A stretch of 36,158 nt of DNA from Corynebacterium sp. (lineage in GTDB: Bacteria; Actinomycetota; Actinomycetes; Mycobacteriales; Mycobacteriaceae), in the NCBI GenBank assembly GCA_030530875.1, contig JAUMUD010000022.1, forward strand, positions 1-36,158, given 5' to 3'. Every line of letters starts with the position of its first letter. Position 1 is the first letter of the stretch. Position numbers and translations under genes: made by a program. Positions 16,634 to 35,826 of this stretch are shown one piece after another. The notes under the pieces are model-generated. The model saw nothing but the letters and a program-made list of their open reading frames with translations, had not been told where the DNA came from and searched no databases.

Positions 16634-17542
16634 TTAGTTTCGCGCATGCACACTTGCGGGATGGGCCACGCGCAGCTCCGGCGGCAGGGCCTTGCGGGCG
16701 CGCAGATGCTCCACCAGATACTCATAGGAGGCATCACCCATGATGGCGCGTAGCTCTTCCTCCTGGCGCTCCCAGAGCGGACTTTCGGCCGTATGGCAGG
16801 CAGGCGCGGTGGAGCAGTACCAGTCAAAGTCCTCACCGCCGCCACCCCAACCGCGGCGGTCATATTCACCAATCACGGTGCGCACAATCTCCACTCCATC
16901 AGCGCGCTCCTCATAGTCCTCCATGCGCCTAATTGGTACCATCCAGCACACCTCGGGCTTAGCGGTAGTCAAAGGCAGACCCGCATCCAAGGCGAATTGG
17001 TGCAGCGCACAGCCAACACCCGTGGGCCAGCCGGGGCGATTGGCAAAAACGCAGGCCCCATCCACGGTGCGAGTCTTAAGCGTTGGCTCCTCCTCGCCCT
17101 CAGCCCATTCCAACCAGGGCTCAATCTCCCCGGTATCCATGCGGCTATCCTGCCCACTAGCATCGGTATAAATCTTGGTCTCCCCATCAGCTGCTAGGCT
17201 GTGGGGGAAATCATATTTATCCCCCAATTGCCAAAAACGCCTCGGCATTTTGGATACTGTTTCAATGAGGTCGGTGCGATCTTGTTCATCACACAGATAC
17301 GCCCCATGGCCGCAACAGCCCACGGCAGGGTTGGATTTATCAATTCCCTTGCAGGTGGGAGTGCCAAAACCGCACTGCCAATAGGATTCCAGCCAGGTCA
17401 AATCCACTGAAAAAACATGCAGTGGGTCCTCGGGGTTGGTGAATTCAAACCACTCGCGGGGATAGTCCGGGGGCAGCTCATCGCCTCGGCGAATGGAGGC
17501 GGCGGCGGGGGACTTGTCCGGGAATCCAAGAAAAATAGGCAC
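16634..17542 (-). CDS. Conserved hypothetical Cys-cluster protein divergent from ppx (302 aa)
   Basis: Cysteines are clustered in patterns seen in metal-binding families. They are C57 in WQCGFG, C64 in [20 protein letters not shown] (75-86), then GACVFANRP and GVGCALHQF further on, with CSTAPAC near the C-terminus. The spacing resembles the DUF3109/YkgJ-type zinc/iron-chelating cysteine cluster, but I cannot confirm the family. Many Trp and acidic residues and no signal peptide or membrane helix point to a soluble cytoplasmic protein. A gene of similar size and orientation next to ppx is conserved in mycobacteria. The GTG start at 17542 follows a TATTCT -10 element by 6 nt, so the message is probably leaderless; no Shine-Dalgarno is visible. 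Confidence 0.8.
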
Positions 17543-18503: not shown

Positions 18504-19502
18504 ATGGCTGAAAAACAGCTCACTGTCGCCGAGCTCATGGCGCGCGCCCAAAAGGAGGGCCGCACCACTGAGCCGCGCCGTCGTCGCCGTCGCTCCGCCG
18601 AAGAAGGCGGCGTATCCTTGGCCGAACTCACCGGCTCAATCCCGCGCGTCCAAAGCGAAGGCACCGAGACCCGCCACTCGCATGAGGCATCCGCTTCCAA
18701 TGATGCTGTCACTACTGCGAATGCCGAGGCCGAGAAGGTTGAGGCGCCAAAGACTGAGGCTCCAAAGGTTGAAGGCACGCAGGCTAGCGTATCGACGACC
18801 CCAGCCCCGCAGGCTACCGGTTCTGCTCCCGTGACAGAGCCTGAAAAGACTGAGGCTCCTCATTCTTCGGAGCCTCAGCAAAAGAAACAGAACTGGGGTG
18901 TAGTCGCAGACACTGACATCACTCAGGTCACTGAAGCTATTGATGATGAACCTGACGCTTCGGCCAAGGCAGAGACGCCAATTAACACTGGGGCTCAGCC
19001 AAAGGCTGAGCCCCAGCCAAAGACCGCTGAGCAGCCTGCTGTTTCAGTAAAGGAGCGTCCAAAGAGCGATGCTGCTAAGGTGACTGCTCAGGCTATTGCT
19101 GCCCGCAAGGAAGCGGAGGAGAAGGCAAGGCAGGAAGCAGAAGCAAAGATTAATGTTGCTGCTGCTATTGATGCTTCTGAGGAAGCCCTCGAAGCTGATC
19201 AGCCACTGTCCATCTTCGATCCTGATGCCCCATCCGAAGATGCCCCTGAGGAGCACAAGACCTCTGTTCTTGCCATGATCATTATGGTCGTGGTGGGCAT
19301 TATCATCGGCATTGTATTCTTCCGTGGCTTCATGCTCCTGTGGGATCACTTCAACCCATTCATTACCGCCATCCTGGCCCTTGCTGTGGTCTGCGGCACC
19401 GTTGGTGTAGTTCACGCACTCCACACTGAGCGTAAGCGCCTTACCATGGTCATCGCAGGCATTGCTGCACTTATCGTGACTGTTGGCCCTTACTGGGCAT
19501 AG
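18504..19502 (+). CDS. Membrane protein with long Ala/Glu/Pro-rich cytoplasmic region (332 aa)
   Basis: The N-terminus opens with AEKQLTVAELMARAQ, then an Arg-rich patch (TTEPRRRRRRS) followed by SLAELTGSIPRV. A disordered stretch rich in Ala, Glu, Pro, Thr and Lys runs to about residue 190, and a charged helix (about 195-225) precedes three hydrophobic helices (about 252-275, 283-305, 313-331). The layout and position match the conserved transmembrane protein that follows ppx1 in mycobacteria (Rv0497 position); function unknown. An AAGGGAG Shine-Dalgarno precedes the ATG, inside the end of ppx, so the two are co-translated. Confidence 0.85.
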   Translation: MAEKQLTVAELMARAQKEGRTTEPRRRRRRSAEEGGVSLAELTGSIPRVQSEGTETRHSHEASASNDAVTTANAEAEKVEAPKTEAPKVEGTQASVSTTPAPQATGSAPVTEPEKTEAPHSSEPQQKKQNWGVVADTDITQVTEAIDDEPDASAKAETPINTGAQPKAEPQPKTAEQPAVSVKERPKSDAAKVTAQAIAARKEAEEKARQEAEAKINVAAAIDASEEALEADQPLSIFDPDAPSEDAPEEHKTSVLAMIIMVVVGIIIGIVFFRGFMLLWDHFNPFITAILALAVVCGTVGVVHALHTERKRLTMVIAGIAALIVTVGPYWA

Positions 19503-20550: not shown

Positions 20551-20748
20551 ATGATTATGGCTAATTTGGATAATGGTCGTTTCCTCACAGTCGCCGAGGT
20601 TGCGGAACATATGCGTGTTTCTAAGATGACCGTATATCGTCTCGTTCACTCGGGCGCCCTGGAAGCTGTTCGCGTGGGTCGTTCCTTCCGTGTTCAGCAG
20701 AAGGCTGTTGAAGAGTACTTGAACTCTTCCTTCTATGAGGCAATGTAA
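20551..20748 (+). CDS. Small helix-turn-helix DNA-binding protein, excisionase/MerR-like (65 aa)
   Basis: The product is a single winged-helix domain of the excisionase/BldC-like type: FLTVAEVAEHMRVSKMTVYRLVHSGALEAVRVGRSFRV spans residues 11-48 and contains the helix-turn-helix and the wing. It ends with AVEEYLNSSFYEAM. The ATG at 20551 follows AAAGG by 5 nt; the ATG at 20557 is an alternative. In mycobacteria a gene of this type (Rv0500A) sits next to the bS22 gene. Here 14.9 kb separate the two. It is a candidate regulator for the surface-protein genes downstream, by position only. Confidence 0.88.
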   Translation: MIMANLDNGRFLTVAEVAEHMRVSKMTVYRLVHSGALEAVRVGRSFRVQQKAVEEYLNSSFYEAM

Positions 20749-20769: not shown

Positions 20770-20805
20770 GAGCTTAAGGTCATGATGAAAGTCATGGCCT
20801 CTCTT
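20770..20805 (+). terminator. Terminator of the HTH gene
   Basis: GGTCATGA pairs with TCATGGCC (one wobble) around a short loop and is followed by TCTCTTTAT, about 25 bp after the stop at 20748. Confidence 0.6.
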
Positions 20806-20935: not shown

Positions 20936-23251
20936 ATGAATTTGCAGGCGCGCATCCGCGCTTTTCGCAGTTGGAAGCCTATCGCGGGCGTAATTATGGG
21001 CGGCACTCTCGTCGCCGGTGTGGTGCATGCCATGCCGATGTTCGCGCAGGCTGATACAAGTCCAAGCTATGCTGCTAACCAAGACATCACAATTCAGTCA
21101 GCAAGCAGCGATGCAAGCAAGTCTGAAATTAGCGTCGCATTCTACACTCTGGACCCTAGCGTCTGTACCGATCAAAATGCGCTTACCAGCGGCAATACTT
21201 TTGCAAGCCTGACTCAGATCTCTGGTACAGGCACGCAGGCTAAAAGCACCGTCAATCGCAATTACCAGGCTGGTGACTGTGTGCTGACTAAGCTGCACTT
21301 CCGTCGAAATCAAATCAACGACAAGGAGCGCCGTTTTACTATTGCGCTTGGTTCCCAAGCGGAAGCCACCAGTATGGGTGGTTTTGTCGGAGCTTATTAT
21401 GTCGACCGAAATGGTAACCTGACCACGGATAACTCGGCTACTTGGGGCTGGGGCGTGGTATCAGCTAGCTTCCCAAATCGCGTATATGAGAAGCCTCGTG
21501 GTACTGAGCGTAATACGTATGGTGGCGGAGAGCATATTGCACGAGTTAATGGTGCTGATTTGTACTTCATCCGCAAGGCCGGCGCGAATGAAGAAAATGC
21601 GCTCAGTCTGAATCTGACTTCTATCTACCGCCAGATGCGCATTACTGGCGCTAGCTATATTGATGATCCTGGCACTAGTGACGAGTCTGAAACTCACGCT
21701 ATCACCATCCCTTATAACCCTCAGTCTGGCACCACGACCACTACCACTAGTGAAGCGCCAAAGGTGACGTGGACGGCTCAGGGTAACATTAATTTGGGTG
21801 CTGACCTCAATGAGAAGAACTGGTCAGCATATGCGGATCGCATTCAGTTCCAGTATGGTGCTGGTGGTGCCGCGGCGTATAACAACGCCAACCCATTTAG
21901 CAGTGAAGTGAAGTCCATTTCTGTTTCAGAAGATGACCGTGTACGTGCACGTATCCAATACAATATCGGCACTGCTGATGAACCAAATTGGAAGACTGCA
22001 ATTAGTACTGACGGTACGGTGACTGCGAAGAACACTACTACTGCAAATGATGATCCAAATGCGCATCTGTACACTTTCAGTCTGAGCGATCCTGAGGCTA
22101 TTGAGCGTATGTCGGCTATTAAGGCCGTTCAGGGTCTCGCGTCTGAGGATAATGTCAGTGATCTTTGCTCGGACTTGGATTCCATTGTGAAGGCTGGCTT
22201 CAACGATAATGGCACTTATGAAGAAAGTGCATGGGTTGCTAAGCAACAAGCTATTGCAAAGTGCATTGATAGCCGTGTAGAGTCCGGCATGAAGCAGTGG
22301 GCCACAATGGCCAAGAACATTCTCGGTGATTCTAATGGCGCAGCAGTCGATCAGATCCTTAATGATGTCAATGATGAGCTCACCGAGGGTACTGTCGTAT
22401 ACGGTTTGGAGAATTACTACAACGCACGCGTTAATCTCTACCGCGCGCTTGCTGTGACCTTCGCCCAGGATATTAACAGTTCTGGTTACCTCAGCACTGA
22501 TATTGACAGCACCAAGCTTGTCGGTGACACCATGACCGATATCGACAAGGCCATGTCCGCCCAGTTTGATGGCAAGAGCCTGGCTGAGATTGGTACCACC
22601 CCTGAGGAAAAGGAACAAATCAAAGAAAATGCTCAGAAGACGGCTAGTGAAAATATCACTAAGAGCATTTCGCAGTTGATTGATTCCCAGACTTCTAATA
22701 ACACCGCTTTGCTGAATGATGCTCAGAAGGAGGCCATCAAGGCGAAGACTGATGCTATCGCCAATGACGACACCCTTAGCCCTGAGCAGAAGCTTGATAA
22801 GGCTAAGGAGTTGCGTAAGGAAGTCATTAGCCTCAGCCAGGCCATTCAGAATTCCAAGTCGTTGGTGGCTGATGCTGAAAAGAAATATGCCGGTCAGGAC
22901 GACGCACAAGCCAAGCTGGGAGAATTGAAGACTGCTCTTCAAACCGCAGTTGGCGCGGCAGATGCCACGGCATCTACGGTCGAAAATGCAAGTCTGGCCT
23001 ACACGCTTGGTCTGCAGAGTGTGGATACTCAGAGTGTTATTGAAAGCCCTGCGGTAAGTTCCACCGGTGAATACCGAAAGGAATTGAGCACTAGTAGTAG
23101 TGAGGCTTCCGAGCCAAGCTCCGGACCAGTAACCACGGTCTATAAGGAACCGGCTAGTGGCTCCACCAAGACGAATTTGATTCTCTTGATTCTGGGTCTT
23201 CTTGGTCTTGGTGGCGTGGTTGCCTACTTCATTTCCACCATGAACCACTAG
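20936..23251 (+). CDS. Exported stalk protein of the GDC/[P/A]SGS family, paralog 1 (771 aa)
   Basis: The ATG at 20936 has a GGAAGG Shine-Dalgarno; the frame is open 11 codons further up but without one. The signal peptide runs to about residue 39 (cleavage FAQA/D). The N-terminal domain (about 55-250) has C77 in DPSVC and C115 in QAGDCVLTKLHF, 38 residues apart. A second beta-rich region (about 265-375) follows a Thr-rich linker, then an extended helical stalk (about 380-710) containing the unit LLNDAQKEAIKAKTDAIAND. The C-terminus is EPASGS plus one membrane helix (about 746-767) and the tail STMNH. No LPXTG is present. It is first in the four-gene surface locus and probably co-transcribed with the giant adhesin 82 bp downstream. 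Function (adhesin or envelope stalk) is inferred from architecture. Confidence 0.85.
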   Translation: MNLQARIRAFRSWKPIAGVIMGGTLVAGVVHAMPMFAQADTSPSYAANQDITIQSASSDASKSEISVAFYTLDPSVCTDQNALTSGNTFASLTQISGTGTQAKSTVNRNYQAGDCVLTKLHFRRNQINDKERRFTIALGSQAEATSMGGFVGAYYVDRNGNLTTDNSATWGWGVVSASFPNRVYEKPRGTERNTYGGGEHIARVNGADLYFIRKAGANEENALSLNLTSIYRQMRITGASYIDDPGTSDESETHAITIPYNPQSGTTTTTTSEAPKVTWTAQGNINLGADLNEKNWSAYADRIQFQYGAGGAAAYNNANPFSSEVKSISVSEDDRVRARIQYNIGTADEPNWKTAISTDGTVTAKNTTTANDDPNAHLYTFSLSDPEAIERMSAIKAVQGLASEDNVSDLCSDLDSIVKAGFNDNGTYEESAWVAKQQAIAKCIDSRVESGMKQWATMAKNILGDSNGAAVDQILNDVNDELTEGTVVYGLENYYNARVNLYRALAVTFAQDINSSGYLSTDIDSTKLVGDTMTDIDKAMSAQFDGKSLAEIGTTPEEKEQIKENAQKTASENITKSISQLIDSQTSNNTALLNDAQKEAIKAKTDAIANDDTLSPEQKLDKAKELRKEVISLSQAIQNSKSLVADAEKKYAGQDDAQAKLGELKTALQTAVGAADATASTVENASLAYTLGLQSVDTQSVIESPAVSSTGEYRKELSTSSSEASEPSSGPVTTVYKEPASGSTKTNLILLILGLLGLGGVVAYFISTMNH

Positions 23252-23266
23252 TTTTTGAGTCTTAAA

Positions 23267-23278
23267 ACTGTATACAGT
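23267..23278. promoter_or_regulatory. Perfect 12-bp palindrome upstream of the giant adhesin gene
   Basis: ACTGTATACAGT is a perfect palindrome in the 82-bp gap between the first stalk gene and the adhesin gene. It could be an operator for a dimeric regulator. No terminator is visible in this gap. Confidence 0.4.
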
Positions 23279-23333
23279 AACTGCACGAAACTGGCATGTT
23301 TGCCGATGGTGAACATGTGTGAAGGAGTTTGTA

Positions 23334-26300
23334 ATGAAGATTAAGCGCTGGCTCAAAGGCGCACTGAGTGCTTTTGCGGCGATGAGCGTGATTGCCACTT
23401 CGGCAACTGTGGTGCCGAGTGGTACGGCTCATGCTGCTACCAAAGTTAATGTGACGAATCAGGGCGCCAAGGGTACTGGCCCTGCAAATCTGCCAACAAC
23501 AGATATGCAAGCTGGCCAGATGGGCTTCAATATTTTGGATAAGTCCACTGCCCAGCAGCACTTCCCATACCTGTGGTCACAGAGGAAGGGCGATCTTACG
23601 ATAGGCCCTGCCTACCGTGTTAGTGTGGATGGCGGCTCAACCATGCTGCCGTTCTATTACCGCGCAACGGAGATTGTTCCTGTCGGTGATAGCCCAAAGA
23701 TTTCTTGGGTAAATCAGTATGTGGAAGATGATGGTACCTTCGAAGCTCCAGGTACCACCGATGGTTTTAGCCCTAATGCTATGACCACCGGTGCAACTGT
23801 GGGTAATACCATCAATTATGACTTCGGTACTGACGCTAATTTGAACTCCCAGTACTTGGGCGCTGAGAATAACAAGACTGGTGCGCCAACTGGTTATGCC
23901 GGTATTTCGGTAGCCTTCTACCGTCCAACTTCTACGGGTGCTGGTTACCTCGTCTGTGTTACCCCAACCTCCTTCAACCCAGATACCACCTGGGGTAACC
24001 TGGTTCCAATGCCTGCCCGTTTCACTCCACAGGCTGGCTATAACGACCGGCCAGAGCTTGGCTACCTCGTTGGTGAGCTCTATCAGAATGCTGGTCTCCA
24101 GGCCAATAGTGGTTCCATCACCAATCCAAGTTCAGTGGTAAGCGCATTGCAGACTGCTTGGAATGGTGTGGTCTCTGGTACTGGCAATGCCACCCTGGAT
24201 GGCCGTCTGACTAACTCCGACATTAAGGCTTATGCTGACTCCAAGCTCGGTGGCATTAACGGTAGTGCACCAAGCTTTAGCGATAATTCTTATTTCCTGA
24301 CCGCCGTGACGCAGACAGTTGTGCAGTACTATCTGCAGGGCGTTCCACTGGAAAATATTCTGAATTCCTTCCGTCTTAATGCCATTGTTAGCGGTATGAG
24401 TGTTGTGAAGTCCGGTTCTTCGCTGGATTCTGATAACGCCGCGCTGCGTAATTTCGCTAAGCTCCTTATTGCATACATTGAGACTGCTCGTGAAAAGGGC
24501 GTGCTCGATCAGCCACTGCCTGGTGATATCACCGCTACTATTGCTAAGAGCACTGCTTCCGGTGGTACTACCACCACTACCTTCAACCTTGGTAATACTT
24601 CGGGTGCTACCGAGCTTCTTGTTCGTGTTCCTTCGGGTGTGACCCTCGCGAGCCCAAGTAGTAGTGGTTCGGCAACTCAGTCTGCTGATGCATCTTCCGG
24701 CTTTGTTAAGATCCCTACTGGTACCACGCAGGTTACTGTTACCTACCCATCTTCTGCCAATATTTCTGCCGACAAGTTCCTCTTTAAGAAGTATGGCACC
24801 GGTCGTGTGAGCGGTAAGCTTTATTCCCCATACGCCAGTTACCAGTACGATTCTGCTTCTGGCCACTGGGTTGCCATTGAGCTTGTTTCCAAGCAGATGA
24901 AGAGCAACAAGGTCACCAAGTGGGCTGCTCAGACCATGCTCATGATTGCTGGTGACAATAAGCCAACTACTTCCCTTGCTACCGTTCAGGTTGTGGCCCC
25001 AACCATCTCCACCACTCTGAATGTTGGCGGTACTGATTCTTCCTCCAGTAAGGCTGTTGAGGTCAAGGCTTCTGAAGCTGCTAACGGTCTGAAGGTGAAG
25101 GATGCTGTTTCCTATACCAACCTCACCTCTGGTACTAAGTACTCCTTGACCTCCACCATCATGGATGCCACCAGCCAGGACTCTGTGTCCAGCGCTACTG
25201 GTGTAAAGGCATCCAATGCTGGCAACTCTGGTTCTAGCAATGTGGTCACCACTGACTTCACTGCTTCTGCTGCTACTGGCAGCCAGACTGTTGATTTCGG
25301 CACTGTTACGAATCTTCAGCCGGGTCATAAATACGTCATTTACACGACCTTAACTGAACAAGGTAAGTCGGATGTTCTTGCTTCTGCTAATGATCCGACC
25401 GACCTTGCTGAGTCCTTCAGTATTGGCGAAGTTCAGTCCGGCAAGCTCTCGACTACGGTCGGTGTTTCCGGTGATACGACTCGTGTCGCTTCGGATAGCA
25501 CGCCACTGACGGTAAGCCGCCAAGAAGCACGTACCGGTGTTCAGTTCACCGATACTGTGAAGTATGAAAACCTGGTTGCTAATACCACTTATGCAGTAAC
25601 CGGTACTCTTCGGAATGTCACTGACGGTGTTGACGTAAAGACTGTCACTGTTAACCAGGACAGTGGTACTGGCAACGGCACTTGGTCCATTGATTTCGGT
25701 GTTGTTTCTGGTCTTCAGGTTGGTAAGACCTACGTGGTTCATGAGACTGCCGTCTCTACCACGGATGTCACCTACCCAACTGATTCTGGTGCAACTACCA
25801 CTGGTAAGCAGGTGGTTAAGCACGAGGATGATAATGACAAGGCGCAGACCGTCGTCGTTGATTCCACCGCACCTGCTGCTGAACTTCGTACGAGTGTCAG
25901 CGTGAAGGACGGTACTTCCACTGTTGCTACCGCAAGTCCTGATGCGGCCTCCAATGGTACTGGTATTACTGCTCAGCCAGCTGTTATTACCGTTAACGAC
26001 AATAATGGCGTCAGCCGTACCGTGACAGATAAGATTTGGTACCGCGGTCTTGTTGGTAACCAGGAGTACACCATCACTGGTCAGCTCATGGACGTCACTA
26101 GCGGTACCCCTACTGAGGTAACTGGTGCAACGGCAACCACCACCATTACTCCTTCCATGGAGTCCATGGATGATGGTGCTGTTACTAGCCTGACCTTCGA
26201 TAATGTTAACATTCAGCCTGGTCATACCTATGTGGTTTATGAGACTGCCACTTCCAATGGTTCCGTGACCTACACGGATAACAATGGTGCCCAGCAGACT

Positions 26301-29300
26301 GGCAACCACGTGGTGGAGCACAAGAATCCATCTGACCAGGCACAGACTGTGGTCGCATACTATGTGAATCCAAATGCTTTGATTCGTACCACGGTTACCG
26401 CGAATAATATTGCTTCCACCGAAGACGCGCCGGCCGTAACTTATACCGCTAATGGTGCAGATACTGCTAGCGTGCCAGTGAAGGATACTGTTACCTATAC
26501 CGGTTTGAGCACTGGTGTCCAGTACAAGGTCACCGGTACCCTCATGCAGGTTGATAGCAATGGTGTTGCTACCAGCACTGGTATCTCCAAGAGCAGCACT
26601 TTCACCCCATCGACCACTGATGGCACTGTGGACGTTGATTTCGGCACTGTGACGCTAAGTGGTGGCGCCAAGTATGTGGTGTATGAGACGGTCGAATCCG
26701 TTTCTAATATTGATAAGAACGGCACCGCAACCCAGAAGATTGTTCATGAGGACCCTTCTGATACCCCACAGACCTTCCTTGTGGTGAAGCCACAGGATGG
26801 CACCATCAAGACCAAGGTCGAGGTGAACTACACCAAGACTGCTACTGCTGATGGCACTTGGGTTGGTGCGTCCCGTGCGGATGGTACTGAGCTCAGCATC
26901 CCGAATGTTACTTCCGTGTACGTTCGCGATAATGTGAGCTACAGTGGCCTCGTGCCAGGGGAGACCTATACCTTTACTGCTACTTTGAAGCAGCTTGATG
27001 AGAATGGTACTTCCGATACGGATGTTGCTAGCGTAACTAGGGATGTGAAGGTTGACGCCGCTTCCGGTACTGCGGTTGTTGAGTTTGATTCGCCTGTATC
27101 TGTCAGCGAGGAAACTCGTTATTATGTGACGGAGACCGCTGTTCATAAGCCATCTTCGGTTGATACGTCTAGTACTACGTACTCGCACAATGACCGCGCG
27201 GATAAGAACCAGACCCTGTTCGTATCCAAGTCCCCATCTATTAGCACGACTGTGACTGCTAATAATGTGGTGAGCTCCGCAGATAATATTGCGGTGGTCG
27301 ATGTTCATGAGAAGAACAGTGTCAAGGTTGTAGATACTGTCACGTACAACAACCTTGATCTGAACAAGACCTATACGGTTGAGGGTATTCTGTACCGAGT
27401 TAACGGCAATAATATTGCCCAAATTGGTAGTGGCGTAACAGCATCTGCTACGGTCACGACTACTAATGATCCAAACAGCGCCAATGGCACTGTTGATGTT
27501 GACTTTGGTACCCGCACGGATCTTGTCCCAGGTCAGAAGTATGTTGTATACGAGACCTTGAAGGATAGTGACGGTAATGAGGTCGCCAAGCACGCTGACC
27601 TGACCGACCAGGCACAGTCCTTCGTGCTGATTTCCCCAGCGCCAGCTGATTCCTCCTTGAAGACCAGCGTCCATGTTGATGGTGGTTATGTGGGTACTGA
27701 TGCCGCACCGGTGGTTCTTAACACGGGTGGCAGCAGGGCTGTTACTGACGTGATCACCTATAGCGGTCTTATCCCAACTGCACAGTACAATGTGACCGGT
27801 CGTCTGATGGAAGTGGATGGTGATGGTAATGCCACTGCCGTGAAGAATGACTCCGGTGCAGATGTTACTGTGACTAAGGAGTTTGAGGCATCTGATACTG
27901 GTGCAGGTGAATGGACCGTTGACTTTGGCAATGTCAACCTTGAGGTTGGTAAGAAGTACGTGGTCTTCGAAAAAGCTGAGTCCGTGGAGAATGTGGTCCA
28001 GGATGCTGATGGTAATGCTGTTAAGCAGACCCTGACCCACGAAAACACCGGTGATAATGCACAGACCATTGTCTTGCCAGTGAACGATGGTGCGATCGGC
28101 ACGACTGTTTCTTATACCACCAGCGCGGGTGATACCACTTCAGCACAGACTAATTCGCCACTGGTGATTAGCCCAGCCGAGGCACTGCGTGATTACACGG
28201 ATGAGGATACCTATAATTCCCGTCCGCTGGACGTGGTGGATACCATTAAGTACCAGGATCTGATGCCTAATTCCGAGTACACCTTCGAGGGCCTGCTCCA
28301 GAAGGTGGAAAATGGTCAGGTTGTTGAGACTATCGGTAGTGGTCGAACCACCATTACCACAGATGGCACTGGTAATGGCGAAGCCAAGGTGACCTTCAGT
28401 GGCGTGCTGCTTGAGCCTGGTCAGACTTATGTGGCCTTCGAGACTGCTTCCTCCACTAAGGTGGTGGCACAGAAGGATGGCACCATGAGCCACCAGATTA
28501 TTGAGCACAAGAACCCACAGGATGCTGCCCAGACTGTGATTGTGTCCGCAATTCCTACCCCTGGTAATATGCGCACGGTCGTCAGTGTGGATGGCTCGGC
28601 AGCTAATATCGGCACCCCAGCCTACGTGGTTCCTAATGGCGCAACGGCAACGACCCGTCTGACGGATACCATCATCTACCAGAACCTCTTCGCAGGTGTG
28701 AAGTACGATATCACCGGTACGCTGATGAAGGTCGAGGGTGATGTTACTGGCCCAGCAGAGAACCTTACGGTGACCCCAGCTGTGGATGCTAATGGCAACG
28801 TCATTACCAAGACCATTACCTACACCCCACAGTCCACCAACGGTATTGCTGTTCTTGAGTTTGGTGTAGTCACTGGCCTTGAGGCCGGTGCCCGCTACGT
28901 GGTCTATGAGCACATGAAGTCCCAGGACCGTGTCCGCCCAGATATGCCAACCAGCACCGAGGCCACGACTGATGCAACCTCGACTACTGGTGCTACGACC
29001 ACTACCACCACTGATGGTTCTACTTCCGAGACCACTACCGGTGGCACCACCCCAGCAAGCCCAGGTAGCTATGATGAGCTGAAGCACGAGAATCCAAAGG
29101 ATGAAGCCCAGACGATTCTCATCCAGCACCCTGCCACCATCCGTACCCAGGTACAGATGGGTAGTGTGACTGCCCAGACGGCTACTAATGACAGCCCAGC
29201 GGCGGCCATGACGGTCAACCCACTGAGTGATCAGGCCTATGTGGATGTGGTGGATAATGTCTTCTACACCGGCCTTATTGCTGGTAAGAGCTATACCCTC

Positions 29301-30032
29301 ACCGGTGAGCTCATGAAGGTCAATGAGGATGGCAGCACGGAGCTTATTGCCCGCCACACGGAGGATAACTTCGTGCCAGAGGCAGCCGAGGGTAAGACCA
29401 CTATTACCTTCGCCAACTCCGCCCTGCAGGCCAATACCAAGTATGTGGTCTTCGAGACTCTGACCAGTAAGGATGCTATTGTCCCAGATGGTGGCAAGCT
29501 GGTCCAGCAGAAGTTGGAACATAAGGATGTGAATGACAAGGCCCAGACCATTGTCGTTAACCAGTACGTCCCAGGTGTCCCAACCACGCCGCTGACCCCA
29601 ACCACGACCCCATGGACGGACCCTTGGCCATATGGCAATGAGCTGACCCCACCGTCGAGCACATCCACGGAGCCAGCTAGCCCAGCCACCACCACCGTGG
29701 AGGGTGAGAACCCGTGGAAGCCATTCCTGCCGTTCCTTCCGCTGATTCCGCTGTTGCCGATTATCCCGGCCCTGCCAATCTGGCCATATAACAACCAGCC
29801 TGGTACCCCGGCCCCATCGCCAACACCAAATGAGCCGCAGAGCCCAGGCGTTTCGGAGGCACTCCAGAGTCCTGCACCGCAGCCGACCCCAAGTCCGGAA
29901 GCACCGCAGACCCCAGAGAAGCCAAAGGGACACCTCGCGGTAACTGGTTCTAATGTCACTGGCCTCGTGGCCGTGGCCATGATCCTGATTTCCGCTGGCC
30001 TCATGTTCGCGTGGCGACGCAAGAACGACTAA
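23334..30032 (+). CDS. Giant sortase-anchored VaFE-repeat adhesin with thioester domain (2232 aa)
   Basis: The ATG at 23334 follows GAAGGAG. The signal peptide ends after AHA (residue 34). The N-terminal domain (about 40-380) looks like a thioester domain: Cys208 in YLVCVTP and the pair Thr326-Gln327 in AVTQTVVQYYL match the family's Cys and TQxxx(W/Y) motifs. Ten tandem Ig-like VaFE (T-Q ester-bond) domains run from about 555 to 2077, beginning at about residues 555, 703, 848, 1015, 1157, 1302, 1441, 1587, 1745 and 1936. Most open with a [IL]xT[TSK]V strand and close with H-x-D/N-x(2)-D-x(2)-QT. A literal VAFET occurs in the eighth. Then come a Pro/Thr linker, a hydrophobic Pro-rich stretch (about 2126-2152), more Pro linker, and LAVTG (2201-2205), a membrane helix and RRKND. 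LAxTG is the class E sortase type of signal. Likely a covalent host-binding fibre. Confidence 0.93.
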   Translation: MKIKRWLKGALSAFAAMSVIATSATVVPSGTAHAATKVNVTNQGAKGTGPANLPTTDMQAGQMGFNILDKSTAQQHFPYLWSQRKGDLTIGPAYRVSVDGGSTMLPFYYRATEIVPVGDSPKISWVNQYVEDDGTFEAPGTTDGFSPNAMTTGATVGNTINYDFGTDANLNSQYLGAENNKTGAPTGYAGISVAFYRPTSTGAGYLVCVTPTSFNPDTTWGNLVPMPARFTPQAGYNDRPELGYLVGELYQNAGLQANSGSITNPSSVVSALQTAWNGVVSGTGNATLDGRLTNSDIKAYADSKLGGINGSAPSFSDNSYFLTAVTQTVVQYYLQGVPLENILNSFRLNAIVSGMSVVKSGSSLDSDNAALRNFAKLLIAYIETAREKGVLDQPLPGDITATIAKSTASGGTTTTTFNLGNTSGATELLVRVPSGVTLASPSSSGSATQSADASSGFVKIPTGTTQVTVTYPSSANISADKFLFKKYGTGRVSGKLYSPYASYQYDSASGHWVAIELVSKQMKSNKVTKWAAQTMLMIAGDNKPTTSLATVQVVAPTISTTLNVGGTDSSSSKAVEVKASEAANGLKVKDAVSYTNLTSGTKYSLTSTIMDATSQDSVSSATGVKASNAGNSGSSNVVTTDFTASAATGSQTVDFGTVTNLQPGHKYVIYTTLTEQGKSDVLASANDPTDLAESFSIGEVQSGKLSTTVGVSGDTTRVASDSTPLTVSRQEARTGVQFTDTVKYENLVANTTYAVTGTLRNVTDGVDVKTVTVNQDSGTGNGTWSIDFGVVSGLQVGKTYVVHETAVSTTDVTYPTDSGATTTGKQVVKHEDDNDKAQTVVVDSTAPAAELRTSVSVKDGTSTVATASPDAASNGTGITAQPAVITVNDNNGVSRTVTDKIWYRGLVGNQEYTITGQLMDVTSGTPTEVTGATATTTITPSMESMDDGAVTSLTFDNVNIQPGHTYVVYETATSNGSVTYTDNNGAQQTGNHVVEHKNPSDQAQTVVAYYVNPNALIRTTVTANNIASTEDAPAVTYTANGADTASVPVKDTVTYTGLSTGVQYKVTGTLMQVDSNGVATSTGISKSSTFTPSTTDGTVDVDFGTVTLSGGAKYVVYETVESVSNIDKNGTATQKIVHEDPSDTPQTFLVVKPQDGTIKTKVEVNYTKTATADGTWVGASRADGTELSIPNVTSVYVRDNVSYSGLVPGETYTFTATLKQLDENGTSDTDVASVTRDVKVDAASGTAVVEFDSPVSVSEETRYYVTETAVHKPSSVDTSSTTYSHNDRADKNQTLFVSKSPSISTTVTANNVVSSADNIAVVDVHEKNSVKVVDTVTYNNLDLNKTYTVEGILYRVNGNNIAQIGSGVTASATVTTTNDPNSANGTVDVDFGTRTDLVPGQKYVVYETLKDSDGNEVAKHADLTDQAQSFVLISPAPADSSLKTSVHVDGGYVGTDAAPVVLNTGGSRAVTDVITYSGLIPTAQYNVTGRLMEVDGDGNATAVKNDSGADVTVTKEFEASDTGAGEWTVDFGNVNLEVGKKYVVFEKAESVENVVQDADGNAVKQTLTHENTGDNAQTIVLPVNDGAIGTTVSYTTSAGDTTSAQTNSPLVISPAEALRDYTDEDTYNSRPLDVVDTIKYQDLMPNSEYTFEGLLQKVENGQVVETIGSGRTTITTDGTGNGEAKVTFSGVLLEPGQTYVAFETASSTKVVAQKDGTMSHQIIEHKNPQDAAQTVIVSAIPTPGNMRTVVSVDGSAANIGTPAYVVPNGATATTRLTDTIIYQNLFAGVKYDITGTLMKVEGDVTGPAENLTVTPAVDANGNVITKTITYTPQSTNGIAVLEFGVVTGLEAGARYVVYEHMKSQDRVRPDMPTSTEATTDATSTTGATTTTTTDGSTSETTTGGTTPASPGSYDELKHENPKDEAQTILIQHPATIRTQVQMGSVTAQTATNDSPAAAMTVNPLSDQAYVDVVDNVFYTGLIAGKSYTLTGELMKVNEDGSTELIARHTEDNFVPEAAEGKTTITFANSALQANTKYVVFETLTSKDAIVPDGGKLVQQKLEHKDVNDKAQTIVVNQYVPGVPTTPLTPTTTPWTDPWPYGNELTPPSSTSTEPASPATTTVEGENPWKPFLPFLPLIPLLPIIPALPIWPYNNQPGTPAPSPTPNEPQSPGVSEALQSPAPQPTPSPEAPQTPEKPKGHLAVTGSNVTGLVAVAMILISAGLMFAWRRKND
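24996..29565 (+). repeat. Ten tandem VaFE / T-Q ester-bond domain repeats
   Basis: The coding repeats are about 415-570 bp each, diverged at DNA level but with conserved ends. The closing QT motif is QT in eight copies. Copy 6 has QS (DLTDQAQSFVL). Copy 1 has ES (DLAESFSIG) and so lacks the ester-forming Gln. Copy 9 carries a Thr/Ser-rich insertion before its last strand. Confidence 0.85.
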
Positions 30033-30047
30033 TCCTCGTTCTGAAGG

Positions 30048-30080
30048 AGATTAACTGCAGGGATTCCCCGCAGTAATCTC
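30048..30080 (+). terminator. Upstream hairpin after the adhesin gene
   Basis: GAGATTA-CTGC pairs with GCAG-TAATCTC, with small bulges. There is no T-run directly after it. It may be a stability hairpin preceding the true terminator. Confidence 0.5.
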
Positions 30081-30090
30081 TGCCCCAGAA

Positions 30091-30130
30091 AATCCCCTGT
30101 TCGGTTTAGATACTGAACAGGGGATTTTGC
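30091..30130 (+). terminator. Intrinsic terminator of the adhesin gene
   Basis: A 12-bp perfect stem (30091-30102 with 30115-30126) is followed by TTT, 58 bp after the stop. Confidence 0.85.
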
Positions 30131-30208
30131 TGATAAACTAGAGGTGACTTGCTTTTCGTAGTATCCGTGTTTTTGCTTCAACCCCTGCTACCCAAAGTGA
30201 AGGTCACC

Positions 30209-32941
30209 ATGAACACATTAATTCGCTGTGGCATTGCTGTGCTGAGCGCCATTGCCCTGTGCAGCTCGGTTATCCATGCCCCGACCGCCCACGCCTTCGG
30301 TAAGGTCTATGTCCCCAATGAGGCGAGGGTTCAGAGTGCTGCCACACACCCGAATGGTGGCACGAGAGAATATCCAACAGTGAGTGCCGCGATGTTCCTT
30401 ATCCGCGACGCCGTCTGGTGTAAAAATGATGCCGGCATGCCTACGCGCGTCGTGAATTTGGAAAATGCCTCCCATCCTTCGGTCAAAGATAAAGTCGTAT
30501 CTAATCAGCCGATACAAGTGGGGGATTGTCTTATTACCCGCGTGGATTTTGTCAACCCCAAGCGGGAGGTCTATAACACCCATATTGAGAATGCCAATTC
30601 CAGCCGTCCACGCACTATTCCTGCAGGGTGGAACCCGGTGGGCATGACTGTTGGCCAGCGTGGTTCCCAAACAACCACCGCCGACCTCACTACTTCGGCT
30701 TTTAAATTTGTCTGGGATGGTATTGCCTTTGATGGCTGGAAATTCCATCTCTTCTTCCTCTGGAATGTGACTGCCGATAATATCGCCGAGGCATCCAAGG
30801 GCTTCAGTGCCAACCTGCCATGGGCAAATAATAGGCCTCATAGCCAGCTCAATGTTATTGATTACCGCCCCTATAATGATGCGGTTGCTCTCCCCGGCGG
30901 TGGCCAAACTTATTACTACACGCAGCCACGCACACCACAGCCCACAGTCCCGGTATATACCGAGGCGCTAACGGAGCTCAATGGCCTAATCCAGGACTCC
31001 TCCAATGCCCTCTCCGCCGCGCAGCGCGAGGCTCTGAAAACTTCCCGCGACGGCGTCCTCAATGAACAGGGCAGTAGTGATGAGCAGAAGAAGACCAAGC
31101 TCGAGGGCCTTAGTTCTGATACCACGGCCTTGCTTGGAGCCCTTGGCCGGGCCACAGCTGCTATTACAGAGGCCAATAATGACCTAAAGGATGCGGAGCT
31201 CTCAAATCCACAGAGCTTCGCAGATGCCAAGAGTGCCCTTGCCAGTGCAATGGCAGCAGCCCAGGCCACAGCAGGCAGTGTGGATGAGGCAATCGCGAGC
31301 TTTAAGGCCACAGTGGGTACCCTCAAGGCGGAGAATAATCTGCGCAAGAAAATTCGTGGCCTTGCTGCCACTGCTGATGGCACCAGTACCAAACTGGATG
31401 GTCTCTCCACAGCCCAGGTGGACTGGTATTTGGGCAAGGTCAATGATGCTATTGCCAATAACCAGGCCCAGGCCTTGGGCATTGAGGCCGAGCTGCTAAG
31501 CGATAAGGTCAAGGAGATTGCTGAGGTCATCGCCACAGTCACCAGCGAGCTCAGCGCCGATATGAGCAAGGAAACCACAGAGCTGACTTCTAAGGCACAG
31601 ACTGCAGGCCGAAGCATTGATGCTCTAGACCAAGACATCACCAACTATTATGATGCTGCTGAGGCCAAGGGCTATGCCATGAGCAAGTCAACTGTTGACC
31701 ATGCCAAGATGAAAGTAACTTTGCTTCTCGAAGATGAAAAATCCGTGCTCAATAAGGAGCAAAAGGCTGCTTTTGAAAAGGAGCTTGAGGCCCTTGGCAC
31801 TAAGCACAGCGCAGATAGCACAATGACTATGACTGCCAAGCGGGCGGATTATGATGCATTGGCCACCAAGATCCAGAAGCTCGCTGCAGCAATCCAGGCT
31901 ATTAATGAGACAGTCAGGAGTGCCAGCCGTGAACTCGGGCGTGAGTTTGAGAGCATCGCTGCAGACACCAAGGCAGTACAGGCTGCTGCCGCAGCCTCGG
32001 ATGCCACGGAGGATGGACTCAAGACCGCTCTTGAAAACTATAAAAAGCGGGTAGATGAGGCCCTCAAGGTCAAGCAGCAGAAGGATGATGAGGAAGCTAA
32101 TCGCCTCGAGCGTGAGCGTGAGAGGGAATCTCGAGAGAGACTAATGCGGGAGCAGATTCTCACCAGTGCTCGCGATAGAGCGGTAAGAACAATGAAAGAG
32201 CGTGAGGGAAGACTATATCGCGAACAGGTTAGTCATCCGCGCGTAGTGGCCGCCCGTCAGAAGCTTGAGGCTACTGCCAATGCTACTGATGCAACTGCAG
32301 ACTCTATTGATGCCGGGATTACTCTCTACACATCCACCATGGATGAGTTGGAGAAATACCTCAAGGCCTTGGAAGAAGCCAAGGAAGCTGCAGCTAAGAA
32401 GGACAGTTCCACTACAGAGACTCCAAATCTTGATGGTCTAAGCCCAGGGCAGATCGAGAATTTCGAGAAACTCATTGACGGCATTGCCAATGACACAAGC
32501 CTCAGTGATGAGGAGAAACTTACCCAGCTCAAGGGCTTGCGTGACCGCATTGATGATCTCATTGCGCAGATTAAGCGCGCCCAGAAAGCACGAAAGGAGA
32601 CCGCTGATAAGGCAGCAAATCTCACCGATAGTGAGAAGCTCGCTGCTCTTGCCGCCCTGGACAAGGAGCTCAGTGATGCCGCCAGTGCCACTGATGCCGA
32701 TGCCGCGAGCGTGAAGAATGCGGTGGATGACTACCTGCTCAAAGTCCAGAACTTCCTTGGCCAGGATGATCTTGATACAGAAAAGGAAGAAGAACTAACC
32801 CCTTCGGATAAAGACCCTGCACCGCAGGAACCTGGAACCACTCCTTCCGGCTCCAGCATCCAATGGTGGCATATCCTCCTCATCCTTCTTGGCCTTGCTG
32901 GCGCTGCCGGTGCTGTGGCCATGAATAGTGGCGCAATTTAA
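30209..32941 (+). CDS. Exported stalk protein of the GDC/[P/A]SGS family, paralog 2 (910 aa)
   Basis: The ATG at 30209 follows GAAGGT by 5 nt; the frame is open another 20 codons upstream without a Shine-Dalgarno. The signal peptide ends after AHA (29). The N-terminal domain (about 40-245) has C71 in AVWCKND and C107 in VGDCLITRVDF, 36 apart. A very long alpha-helical stalk (about 255-870) contains recurring FIVAR-like units such as LDGLSTAQVDWYLGKVNDA and LDGLSPGQIENFEKLIDGIA. A segment of about 60 residues near 615-675 is extremely Arg/Glu/Lys-rich and could form a single charged helix. The C-terminus is TTPSGSSIQWWHILL plus one membrane helix and the tail MNSGAI, with no basic stop-transfer. 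It is flanked by terminators on both sides, so it is probably monocistronic. Confidence 0.85.
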   Translation: MNTLIRCGIAVLSAIALCSSVIHAPTAHAFGKVYVPNEARVQSAATHPNGGTREYPTVSAAMFLIRDAVWCKNDAGMPTRVVNLENASHPSVKDKVVSNQPIQVGDCLITRVDFVNPKREVYNTHIENANSSRPRTIPAGWNPVGMTVGQRGSQTTTADLTTSAFKFVWDGIAFDGWKFHLFFLWNVTADNIAEASKGFSANLPWANNRPHSQLNVIDYRPYNDAVALPGGGQTYYYTQPRTPQPTVPVYTEALTELNGLIQDSSNALSAAQREALKTSRDGVLNEQGSSDEQKKTKLEGLSSDTTALLGALGRATAAITEANNDLKDAELSNPQSFADAKSALASAMAAAQATAGSVDEAIASFKATVGTLKAENNLRKKIRGLAATADGTSTKLDGLSTAQVDWYLGKVNDAIANNQAQALGIEAELLSDKVKEIAEVIATVTSELSADMSKETTELTSKAQTAGRSIDALDQDITNYYDAAEAKGYAMSKSTVDHAKMKVTLLLEDEKSVLNKEQKAAFEKELEALGTKHSADSTMTMTAKRADYDALATKIQKLAAAIQAINETVRSASRELGREFESIAADTKAVQAAAAASDATEDGLKTALENYKKRVDEALKVKQQKDDEEANRLERERERESRERLMREQILTSARDRAVRTMKEREGRLYREQVSHPRVVAARQKLEATANATDATADSIDAGITLYTSTMDELEKYLKALEEAKEAAAKKDSSTTETPNLDGLSPGQIENFEKLIDGIANDTSLSDEEKLTQLKGLRDRIDDLIAQIKRAQKARKETADKAANLTDSEKLAALAALDKELSDAASATDADAASVKNAVDDYLLKVQNFLGQDDLDTEKEEELTPSDKDPAPQEPGTTPSGSSIQWWHILLILLGLAGAAGAVAMNSGAI

Positions 32942-32965
32942 GGTCACCTTATTGCGCATTTCACG

Positions 32966-33007
32966 ATAATCCCTGCGTTATTCACATACACGCGGGGATT
33001 ATTTTTA
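32966..33007 (+). terminator. Intrinsic terminator of paralog 2
   Basis: A 12-bp stem with one wobble pair (32966-32977 with 32991-33002) leads into TTTTT, 24 bp after the stop. Confidence 0.88.
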
Positions 33008-33089
33008 GGAAAAATTAAGTTTTTGCTAGGATTGAGAGCAGGTCTATTCATACATTTTGATCAGTGAAATTGAGATATAGAGGATATCG

Positions 33090-35510
33090 ATGAAGAAGAT
33101 TTTGAGAAGCGCGATCGTGGCCCTCTCGGCACTGTCGATTGGTGTTTCTGCGGTCTCTGTACCTACCAATGCTGTTTATGCCGACGCCGTTGCGACTAAT
33201 ATTACAAAGGGCAATTACCAGAAGACGATTAGCGCTGCCGAGTATTCTGGTGATGGCGCAAAATATCCAACGCTGACTGCGTATATGTATCACATCCGTA
33301 AGGATGGTTTCTGTGCTAACACCACAGATAGCTCTGGCGCTACCCTTAATGATCGACTAAATTCGCTCCGTACTCCTGACAGTGTGAACGGTGTGGTCTG
33401 GGATTCGCCTCTGCAGCCAGGTGACTGTGTGGCCGTCCGTTTTGAATACTTGAATGCTCGTAAGGCTCAGGATTTTGGTAGTCGCAATGCCTATGACATT
33501 TATATCAGTGGTACCCGTACTGATTTCAGTAGGAATAATTCATCTTGGCAACCATTCGGTGTCCAGTACCTTGGCGTCGATGGCTGGAAAACTCCGAACA
33601 TGAGCGCTAATGACTTCTACTATGGCGGCAGGATTAATGCTGCCGGAGTTGCGCTCACCCTGAGCGCTACGGTTACCGCGGATAATATCAAGGAACTGTC
33701 GACCAACTTCATCAACGTGAATATCCCATTTACCATGGATCCGAACAACGATGCTCAGGTCATCCGCGGTCCATACAAGGTTAGTCCGAAGATCACGACT
33801 TTCAAGATGCCGAATGACGGATATTATTTCGCCTATGAATTGCCAGAGCCAGACTATGTAAAGACTGTCACTGATGCTCTTGCTCAGACGAGCAATTTGA
33901 GTGATGATCAGAAGACCGCATTTACCAAGCGCGCAACTGACATCAAGAATTCTTCTGATGATTCGACTACCAAGTCGAAGAACACCGATGCCTTGGTCAC
34001 TGAACTCAAGAATTTGGATACCGCTATCGGCAAAGCTAAGACTGCTGCCACTAATGCAAGGCAGAATCTTGGCGCTGATTATGGCAATACTGCCGTAGCG
34101 AATGCCAACGCCGTTCTGGTTGAGGCTTATTCCAAGTCGGATGCAACTGTCGACTCTGTTAATGCCGCTGTAACGGCTTACCAAAAGGCTATCGACACTG
34201 TGAAGGCTGGCACCACTCTTCGTGGTTGGGTTGATCAGCAGACTAAGGCTACCGCTGCAGGTCTTGATGGTCTTTCTACCGCACAGGTTAGTGCTCTGAA
34301 GGACCAGACCGCCGCAGCTGCCGCTTCGGATGGTGCTACTGCCACTTTCAAGACCAATGTTGTCAACCTCATTACTGCCATCAAGTCTGCTGGTAGTGCT
34401 ATTTCCGCTGCTAAGCAGGACCTCGGCGATAATGCAGACCTGAACGCAGCCATAAAGACTCTGACCGATGCTGCAAGCACTTCGACTGATCCAGCTGCTG
34501 TTAACAAGGCAGTGAGCGACTTCAATGCTGCTGTTCAGAACATTAAGAATGCTGCAACCAGCCGGCAGCAGGCAGTTACTGCTGCTAATACCGCTGTTAA
34601 GGATGCTGAGGCAGCAATGAAGGATGTGCTTGCTGATGCTTCCAACGCTGCTAAGGCCAATGGCTACAAGGAGGCGCTCAACAGCGTGCTGAATAACACT
34701 GCTTCCACCCCGGAGCAGATTCAGGCCGCAGTTAAGACCTATCAGGACAATATGAGCGCCCTCTATGCTGATAGCGTTGTGGACCCAGCTGCTAATAATG
34801 CTGCCCTGAGCGAAGCACAGAAGAAGGACATTCAAGATAAGCGTCAGGCTATTCTTAATGACAGCTCCAAGAGCTTCCAGGATAAGATTGCTGCTCTGGA
34901 TGATCTCAAGAAGAACACTGACACCCTTGTTAGCGCCCTGAATAATGTCACTTCTAAGGCTGCACAGGCTGGTAGCGCTGCAGATTCTCTTGATGGTCTG
35001 AATAAGGATCAGGTCAGCGTCTGGCAGAGCAGCATTGAGAGCATTGTGAACAATGCCAATATGACTGCTGATCAAAAGAAGTCGAAGATTCAGGAGATGA
35101 ATAATCTCCTGAATAAGCTTGTTGATGCTATTGCTAGGGCAAAGGCTAAGGTGGCTCAGATTCGTGCTGATATGAGCAATGCCTCTGATAGCGAATCTGC
35201 CGCTAAGCAGGCAGCTGCCCAGAAGGTCGAGATCCAAATTCAGAAGCTCGTTGCTGCTGCAAGTGCTGCAACTGACCCAACCGATGCTACTGATGAGGAT
35301 AATCAGGTTATTATCATCGAGCAGGGTGAAGTTGACCTCGACCAGGCTTACCTGGAATACCAGAATGAGAGGGAGAACCCAGCTGATAGGGCTACTGAGA
35401 CTCCTAAACCATCTGGCTCCAGTGTCTCCTGGTGGCAGATTCTGCTGATTATCCTGGGCCTGGCTGGCATTGGTGCCGGTGTGGCTGCTTCCCAGGGTAT
35501 GGTTCGCTAA
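33090..35510 (+). CDS. Exported stalk protein of the GDC/[P/A]SGS family, paralog 3 (806 aa)
   Basis: The ATG at 33090 has AGAGGA 5 nt upstream. The signal peptide ends after VYA (31). The N-terminal domain (about 40-250) has C75 in DGFCANT and C113 in PGDCVAVRFEYL, 38 apart. YPTLTAYMYHIRK aligns with YPTVSAAMFLIRD of paralog 2, and ATVTADNIKELSTNF with NVTADNIAEASKGF, so the two are clear homologs. The helical stalk (about 255-750) repeats units such as LDGLSTAQVSALKDQ and LDGLNKDQVSVWQSS alternating with AIxxAKxxLG segments. An acidic stretch near 730-760 precedes PKPSGSSVSWWQILL, one membrane helix and the tail QGMVR. It is bounded by terminators upstream and downstream. Role as a membrane-tethered stalk is inferred. 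Confidence 0.85.
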   Translation: MKKILRSAIVALSALSIGVSAVSVPTNAVYADAVATNITKGNYQKTISAAEYSGDGAKYPTLTAYMYHIRKDGFCANTTDSSGATLNDRLNSLRTPDSVNGVVWDSPLQPGDCVAVRFEYLNARKAQDFGSRNAYDIYISGTRTDFSRNNSSWQPFGVQYLGVDGWKTPNMSANDFYYGGRINAAGVALTLSATVTADNIKELSTNFINVNIPFTMDPNNDAQVIRGPYKVSPKITTFKMPNDGYYFAYELPEPDYVKTVTDALAQTSNLSDDQKTAFTKRATDIKNSSDDSTTKSKNTDALVTELKNLDTAIGKAKTAATNARQNLGADYGNTAVANANAVLVEAYSKSDATVDSVNAAVTAYQKAIDTVKAGTTLRGWVDQQTKATAAGLDGLSTAQVSALKDQTAAAAASDGATATFKTNVVNLITAIKSAGSAISAAKQDLGDNADLNAAIKTLTDAASTSTDPAAVNKAVSDFNAAVQNIKNAATSRQQAVTAANTAVKDAEAAMKDVLADASNAAKANGYKEALNSVLNNTASTPEQIQAAVKTYQDNMSALYADSVVDPAANNAALSEAQKKDIQDKRQAILNDSSKSFQDKIAALDDLKKNTDTLVSALNNVTSKAAQAGSAADSLDGLNKDQVSVWQSSIESIVNNANMTADQKKSKIQEMNNLLNKLVDAIARAKAKVAQIRADMSNASDSESAAKQAAAQKVEIQIQKLVAAASAATDPTDATDEDNQVIIIEQGEVDLDQAYLEYQNERENPADRATETPKPSGSSVSWWQILLIILGLAGIGAGVAASQGMVR

Positions 35511-35724: not shown

Positions 35725-35826
35725 ATGGGTTCTGTCATTAAGAAGCGTCGTAAGCGCATGTCCAAGAAGAAGCACCGCAAGCTTCTCCGTCGTACTCGCG
35801 TGCAGCGTCGTAAGCTCGGTAAGTAA
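35725..35826 (+). CDS. Small ribosomal subunit protein bS22 / AURKAIN-type (33 aa)
   Basis: ATG at 35725, TAA at 35824-35826. The product, [20 protein letters not shown] followed by a second Arg/Lys-rich half ending RRKLGK, is almost entirely basic. It matches the actinobacterial bS22 protein (Rv0500B type), which binds the small subunit rRNA, and carries the mitochondrial AURKAIP1-like core [16 protein letters not shown] Shine-Dalgarno lies about 9 nt upstream. It is too short for most gene finders. It usually sits directly after the small HTH gene; here the surface-protein locus lies between them. Confidence 0.93.

Follow-up and report, generated by a model that had tools for sequence, protein, structure and literature searches.

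A putative family of stalked surface proteins with a two-cysteine head domain in a four-gene Corynebacterium island

Here we describe a four-gene surface island in a Corynebacterium genome of 2.19 Mb and 67 contigs, one of which (C55) makes up the whole window, the complete stretch of 36,158 nucleotides that was analysed. Three of the genes, found at the positions given in an initial annotation of this DNA, encode the proteins referred to here as P1, P2 and P3, and the fourth encodes a VaFE-type protein (Table 1). All four sit between an HTH gene, 79% identical to a query composed from the HTH genes of relatives, and a small basic protein gene, which we take to be of the bS22 / AURKAIP1-COX24 type. 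A 6.2 kb query was matched at the place of the small gene by 39 of 40 other genomes compared there. The seven relatives examined, drawn from these 40, all have proC, the HTH gene and the small gene grouped within about 1.6 kb, with the last two side by side, so that a site carrying four surface genes in the source lineage carries none in these relatives. The final 55 bases of the contig (36104-36158) recur in contigs C61, C64, C31, C26, C4 and, at 82%, C59, and the assembly probably halted at this repeat.

Table 1. Genes and terminator-like hairpins of the island and its borders, in window coordinates
Feature	Position	Strand	Description
HTH_17 (excisionase-type) gene	20557..20745	+	Left island border; Pfam HTH_17, E 3.6e-15
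Terminator-like hairpin	20777-20800		3' of the HTH gene
P1	20936..23251	+	771 residues; predicted export signal, head, second domain, helical part, one stalk repeat, ASGS and hydrophobic anchor
VaFE / T-Q ester repeat surface protein	23319..30032	+	2237 residues; LAVTG sorting signal; neighbour outside the P1-P3 family
Terminator-like hairpin after the VaFE gene	30089..30128	+	RNA fold of gap
P2	30209..32941	+	910 residues; predicted export signal, head, about five stalk repeats, PSGS and hydrophobic anchor
Terminator-like hairpin with T run after P2	32965..33007	+	RNA fold of gap
P3	33090..35510	+	806 residues; predicted export signal, head, about five stalk repeats (some partial), PSGS and hydrophobic anchor
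Terminator-like hairpin with T run after P3	35541..35586	+	RNA fold of gap
Small basic protein gene	35725..35826	+	33 residues; right island border; 97-100% identity in seven relatives and G058

RNA folding of the gaps placed hairpins, each with a run of T within or following its stem, 3' of the VaFE gene, P2 and P3, and none 3' of P1. A consensus terminator scan flagged none of the three, so the transcription units remain a proposal, in which P1 is probably co-transcribed with the VaFE gene, and P2 and P3 would form separate single-gene units. An in-frame TTG at 30149 is an alternative possible start for P2.

A second genome carries a corresponding island. Searching genome contigs with an alignment of the three N-terminal heads yielded 28 pattern matches and one locus, in Corynebacterium sp. 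MAG S11A_Sa_2_sub, where the stretch is identical over 19003 bases to another genome of our collection (G058). The end of one G058 contig holds proC, an HTH gene with 97% identity and the beginning of a P1-type gene, while another contig holds the rest of P1, the VaFE gene, a single P2/P3-type gene (L012:8679-11678) and the small gene (100% identical); the gene order of the source genome is thus kept, with one P2/P3-type gene.

The heads of P1, P2 and P3 are about 220 residues long (residues 42-262 in P1, which continues with a second domain at about 284-395, a helical part with two cysteines at 396-450 and a stalk repeat at 593-691). Their paired cysteines lie where the initial annotation had placed them, at C77/C115, C71/C107 and C75/C113, the second in GDCV, GDCL and GDCV. 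Its description of exactly two cysteines applies to the heads and to P3 as a whole, but not to the full lengths of P2, where C7 and C18 fall within the N-terminal export signal, and P1, where C411 and C443 lie in the helical part; likewise, the spacing of 35-37 residues is correct for these three proteins but widens to 33-37 once the relatives are included. Both cysteines, the second within GDC, are present in all five heads available from the two genomes. Invariance across these five is limited to 11 of 173 ungapped columns, both cysteines and the glycine and aspartate preceding the second among them, and four of the heads share no more than 11-30% identity with the first. The C411/C443 pair recurs in the P1-type protein of G058 at a shorter spacing (21 residues between, against 31).

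P2 and P3 are related at the level of pairwise BLAST (E 7e-30, 29% identity over 426 columns covering the head and first stalk), whereas the P1 head is missed by such comparisons, which raises the alternative that it is non-homologous, its C-x-GDC likeness being partly chance and P1 being joined to the others by stalk and anchor only. The profile evidence is uneven in the same sense: a P1 profile scores P2, P3 and the G058 relative no better than some shuffled sequences (1, 8 and 44 of 9000 drawn, of which 6800 were reported), a P2/P3 profile leaves the P1 head of the source genome outside its matches at E 0.01, and profile-profile alignment of P1 with P2/P3-type heads (hhalign probability 81.5, E 1.1e-5) spans 99 of 222 columns, though with both cysteines included. 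We nevertheless consider a separate origin of the P1 head unlikely, in that the P1-type heads of both genomes, scored against a profile built from P2, P3 together with the relative, reach 14.5 and 13.5 bits, above the best of 6000 shuffles (10.2 bits; 4955 reported with a score). In addition, when the whole G058 genome was searched with the P2/P3 profile, its P1-type head came up at E 0.003. The P1 head is thus the weaker match: its membership depends on some 100 aligned columns and on profiles that succeed in one direction only. The heads have no match over cut-off in Pfam, NCBIfam, PHROGs or PDB sequences, and a Pfam scan extended to E 10 gave just two, far below cut-off (FliC, 0.56; AcrIIA4, 0.22). 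Together, the profiles, the shared stalk repeats and the synteny in the second genome support the original proposal that P1, P2 and P3 form a common family lacking a named relative.

At the thresholds used, the head has a very narrow distribution. The P2/P3 head profile matched 2 of 201 genomes of the genus at E<=0.01, and a five-head profile at E<=0.1 matched 4 of 242 Corynebacterium genomes, two of them true (G058 contributing two heads by whole-genome search) and two rejected as chance (G189, E 0.012; G124, E 0.040), their ORFs looking like another gene, presumably lysyl-tRNA synthetase. An order-wide sample gave 2 matches in 397 genomes, the source genome and G485 (E 2.6e-4); the latter was rejected because the frame contains a stop in DNA of 72% G+C and another frame reads as a different protein, presumably a phosphatase/arsenate reductase. 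In a phylum-wide sample only the source genome itself matched (1 of 396). These searches place the head in two genomes only, a count to be read with the fragmentation of the source and G058 assemblies (about 60 or more contigs each) and with fast divergence, which may hide relatives. Other collections gave nothing further: P3 as a single query against genome contigs produced 44 pattern matches, none confirmed, the three-head alignment produced 27 in viral contigs, again none confirmed, and no match came from plasmids (queries P3 and the P1 head) or from phages (query P2).

Behind the head, the initial annotation had described a helical repeat stalk followed by a C-terminal helix, and each protein indeed has a stalk of helical repeats of about 100 residues and one C-terminal hydrophobic segment. 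An iterated profile (limit 0.05) detected 18 repeat copies in five sequences, some partial and the weakest at E 0.019: one in P1, five each in P2 and P3, six in the P2/P3-type protein of G058 and one in the C-terminal piece of its P1. With a profile of ten rows (six from P1-P3, four from the G058 relatives), all nine matches in the source genome at E<=0.01 fall within P1-P3, and none was found in 60 other relatives, a sample outside which G058 lies. Chou-Fasman averages make the head less helical than the stalk, but the separation is only modest. Helical stalk repeats of large surface proteins are known from families such as FIVAR, and the units of P1-P3 are similar in style to DUF1542 / GA-like repeats. 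Whole P1-P3 have no Pfam match over cut-off, DUF1542 and GA included, and the P2/P3-type protein of G058 matches GA_3 at 0.015, below cut-off. Single repeats compared with Pfam gave FlxA in 3 of 10 (best 7.5e-7), FlgN in 3 of 10 (best 0.0035) and DUF1542 in 2 of 10 (best 1.5e-4), among 47 families matched weakly and in mixed fashion up to E 1; given that FlxA and FlgN appear in more repeats than DUF1542, the stalk matches may be generic helical ones.

At their ends, P1-P3 have hydrophobic N-termini predicted to act as export signals and, by hydropathy, a single C-terminal hydrophobic segment each, followed by short tails with no or one lysine or arginine (STMNH in P1, NSGAI in P2, SQGMVR in P3), unlike the VaFE tail WRRKND. 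No sortase-signal (LPXTG) model in NCBIfam matches them at E<=1, and the LPXTG-like motif with basic tail of sortase-anchored proteins is not seen in them. The [P/A]SGS anchor, previously listed as a feature of the family, is present in all three, but it is not a family mark, being common to other surface proteins of the genome: the anchor profile has 26 matches there at E<=10 and 14 at E<=1e-3, three of which are P1-P3 and 11 others (four of these were rows of the profile). Those whose ORF ends were read lie at or near the C-terminus, and one (on contig C62) has a basic tail. In the genus, 3 of 61 genomes matched at E<=1e-5 (the source genome, G058 and G002), a figure that does not demonstrate absence elsewhere given that the first two supplied the sequences of the profile.

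The VaFE protein encoded between P1 and P2 matches Pfam TQ (1e-155, ten stretches) and NCBIfam VaFE_rpt (2.3e-123), with a weaker match to LPXTG_anchor (0.015); P1-P3 match neither the TQ nor the VaFE_rpt model. As a VaFE / T-Q ester repeat protein (the class of TIE-type adhesins) it is likewise a surface protein and stands in the same island as P1-P3, in an order kept in G058, but it differs from them in its T-Q ester repeats and LAVTG sortase signal. The N-terminal part of the VaFE protein has no Pfam match up to E 10 and only one, unrelated, PDB match, at 0.31. It carries the single cysteine of the protein, C213, and the G058 relative also has just one, C206; such a residue would fit a candidate thioester.

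Comparison of the two genomes shows that these proteins diverge rapidly. Identity is 82% for proC and 86% for ppx, both flanking the island, 76% for the gene at 16634-17542, 78% for the VaFE N-terminal domain and 66% for the whole VaFE protein. The P2/P3-type head of G058 is only 25% identical to that of P2 and 28% to that of P3, whereas its last stalk repeat and last 34 residues are each 61% identical to those of P2; for the P2 pair, the contrast between head and last repeat has a Fisher p of 1e-9, which is a rough guide since residues are not independent. Divergence is spread evenly along P1 (40% identity in the head, 48% in the second domain, 53% in the helical cysteine part, 36% in the repeat and 42% in linker and anchor), and likewise between P2 and P3 from head to last repeat (head 31%, stalks 27-28%). 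The single G058 gene looks like a mosaic of these two, its first repeat being closer to P3 (43% versus 30% to P2) and its last closer to P2 (61% versus 31% to P3), and exchange between tandem genes could therefore produce the contrast between head and last repeat. These three observations weaken the idea that the head alone changes fast. In addition, a flanking gene at 18504-19502 is just 51% identical, which shows that low identity also occurs outside the island.

Starting from the shared domains, gene order, terminator-like hairpins and divergence pattern, all observed directly, we regard P1-P3 as stalked, tail-anchored surface recognition proteins, probably adhesins, a reading that we hold to be somewhat better than evenly balanced. 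They would be exported through the N-terminal signal and then retained by the C-terminal hydrophobic helix, which lacks a basic tail; within the envelope, the outer mycolic-acid membrane is the most likely site of this anchoring, and one to six helical repeats would raise the head above the cell surface. The two cysteines of the head probably form a bond that closes it by tying the first conserved region to the GDC segment; export, the invariance of both residues in five heads and oxidative folding in the genus all point this way. One survey states that about 60% of exported proteins in such Actinobacteria have even numbers of cysteines and that oxidative folding is a major pathway (PMC9974433), and the source genome encodes one Thioredoxin_4 protein over cut-off. 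Judging from the architecture, the VaFE neighbour and the divergence, the heads probably grip a ligand, whether on host tissue, on a partner microbe or on some surface, acting alongside the sortase-type VaFE protein. If this reading is right, it would contribute a surface-recognition domain outside present classifications and, next to PS2, a second way of anchoring surface proteins in the mycomembrane; and the presence of the island in one lineage and in none of seven relatives would make adhesion and niche there directly testable.

The proposed location draws on the S-layer protein PS2, whose C-terminal residues, about 27 in number, anchor it in the mycomembrane beneath a helical coiled-coil (PMC12337289), and on the missing basic tail of P1-P3. 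Both PS2 (PMC12337289) and P1-P3 combine a signal peptide, a helical pedestal and a C-terminal hydrophobic anchor, and P1-P3 have no match to a sortase-signal model. This common gross plan brings up the alternative that P1-P3 are subunits of a PS2-like coat, present in many copies with tail anchors in the mycomembrane and with the head as lattice contact; the arrangement of P2 and P3 as tandem paralogues with their own terminator-like hairpins would be compatible with separate strong expression. However, PS2 is all-helical, with a six-helix core and a three-helix arm, and the passages describing it mention neither a Cys-GDC head nor repeats of about 100 residues (PMC12337289), while P1-P3 have 771-910 residues, stalks built of repeats and a less helical head. 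Among the PDB sequences matched by P1 (two, best E 0.081), by P2 (one, E 0.34) or by the profiles of head, stalk and anchor, none is named as an S-layer protein. A coat of this kind thus appears improbable.

A role as nutrient receptors that pass surface-captured haem, haemoglobin or metal to a transporter is less probable still, for although corynebacterial haem and zinc proteins also combine a secretion signal with a C-terminal transmembrane region (PMC12445094), there is no transporter among the four island genes, Pfam scans found no zinc or haem domain in P1-P3, the two Pfam matches of the head lie far below cut-off, and such a task has no need of long repeat stalks. The zinc proteins ZnuE and ZnuF share the secretion signal and C-terminal transmembrane segment with P1-P3, differ from them in having positively charged C-termini, and were detected in the membrane fraction or in tight association with the wall (PMC12445094); the mycomembrane is therefore not the sole possible location of P1-P3.

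Returning to P1-P3 as surface recognition proteins, a bolder and doubtful version would make the head a new disulfide-pinned recognition domain of one small Corynebacterium lineage, forming the quick-changing tip of a sortase-free mycomembrane fibre with a fixed membrane-near stalk and anchor.

Several other anchored proteins were encountered in the source genome. The first 795 bases of the window encode the C-terminal portion of another surface protein, truncated by the contig end, with repeats rich in proline, glycine, serine and threonine and with GA modules (PF01468, two stretches, E 2.1e-15), which are albumin-binding, followed by a PSGS hydrophobic anchor and a tail of about 30 residues. 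Similar tails (GWGYVHDADFRAVVD...) follow the hydrophobic segment at C38:39342, C61:1668 and window position 601 (L043, L050 and L046), so that these three surface proteins display a second anchor style. The same anchor style as in P1-P3 is found on a DUF285 protein (PF03382, E 2.2e-20) at C28:193-1194 (L005), whose gene adjoins another anchored ORF truncated by the contig end.
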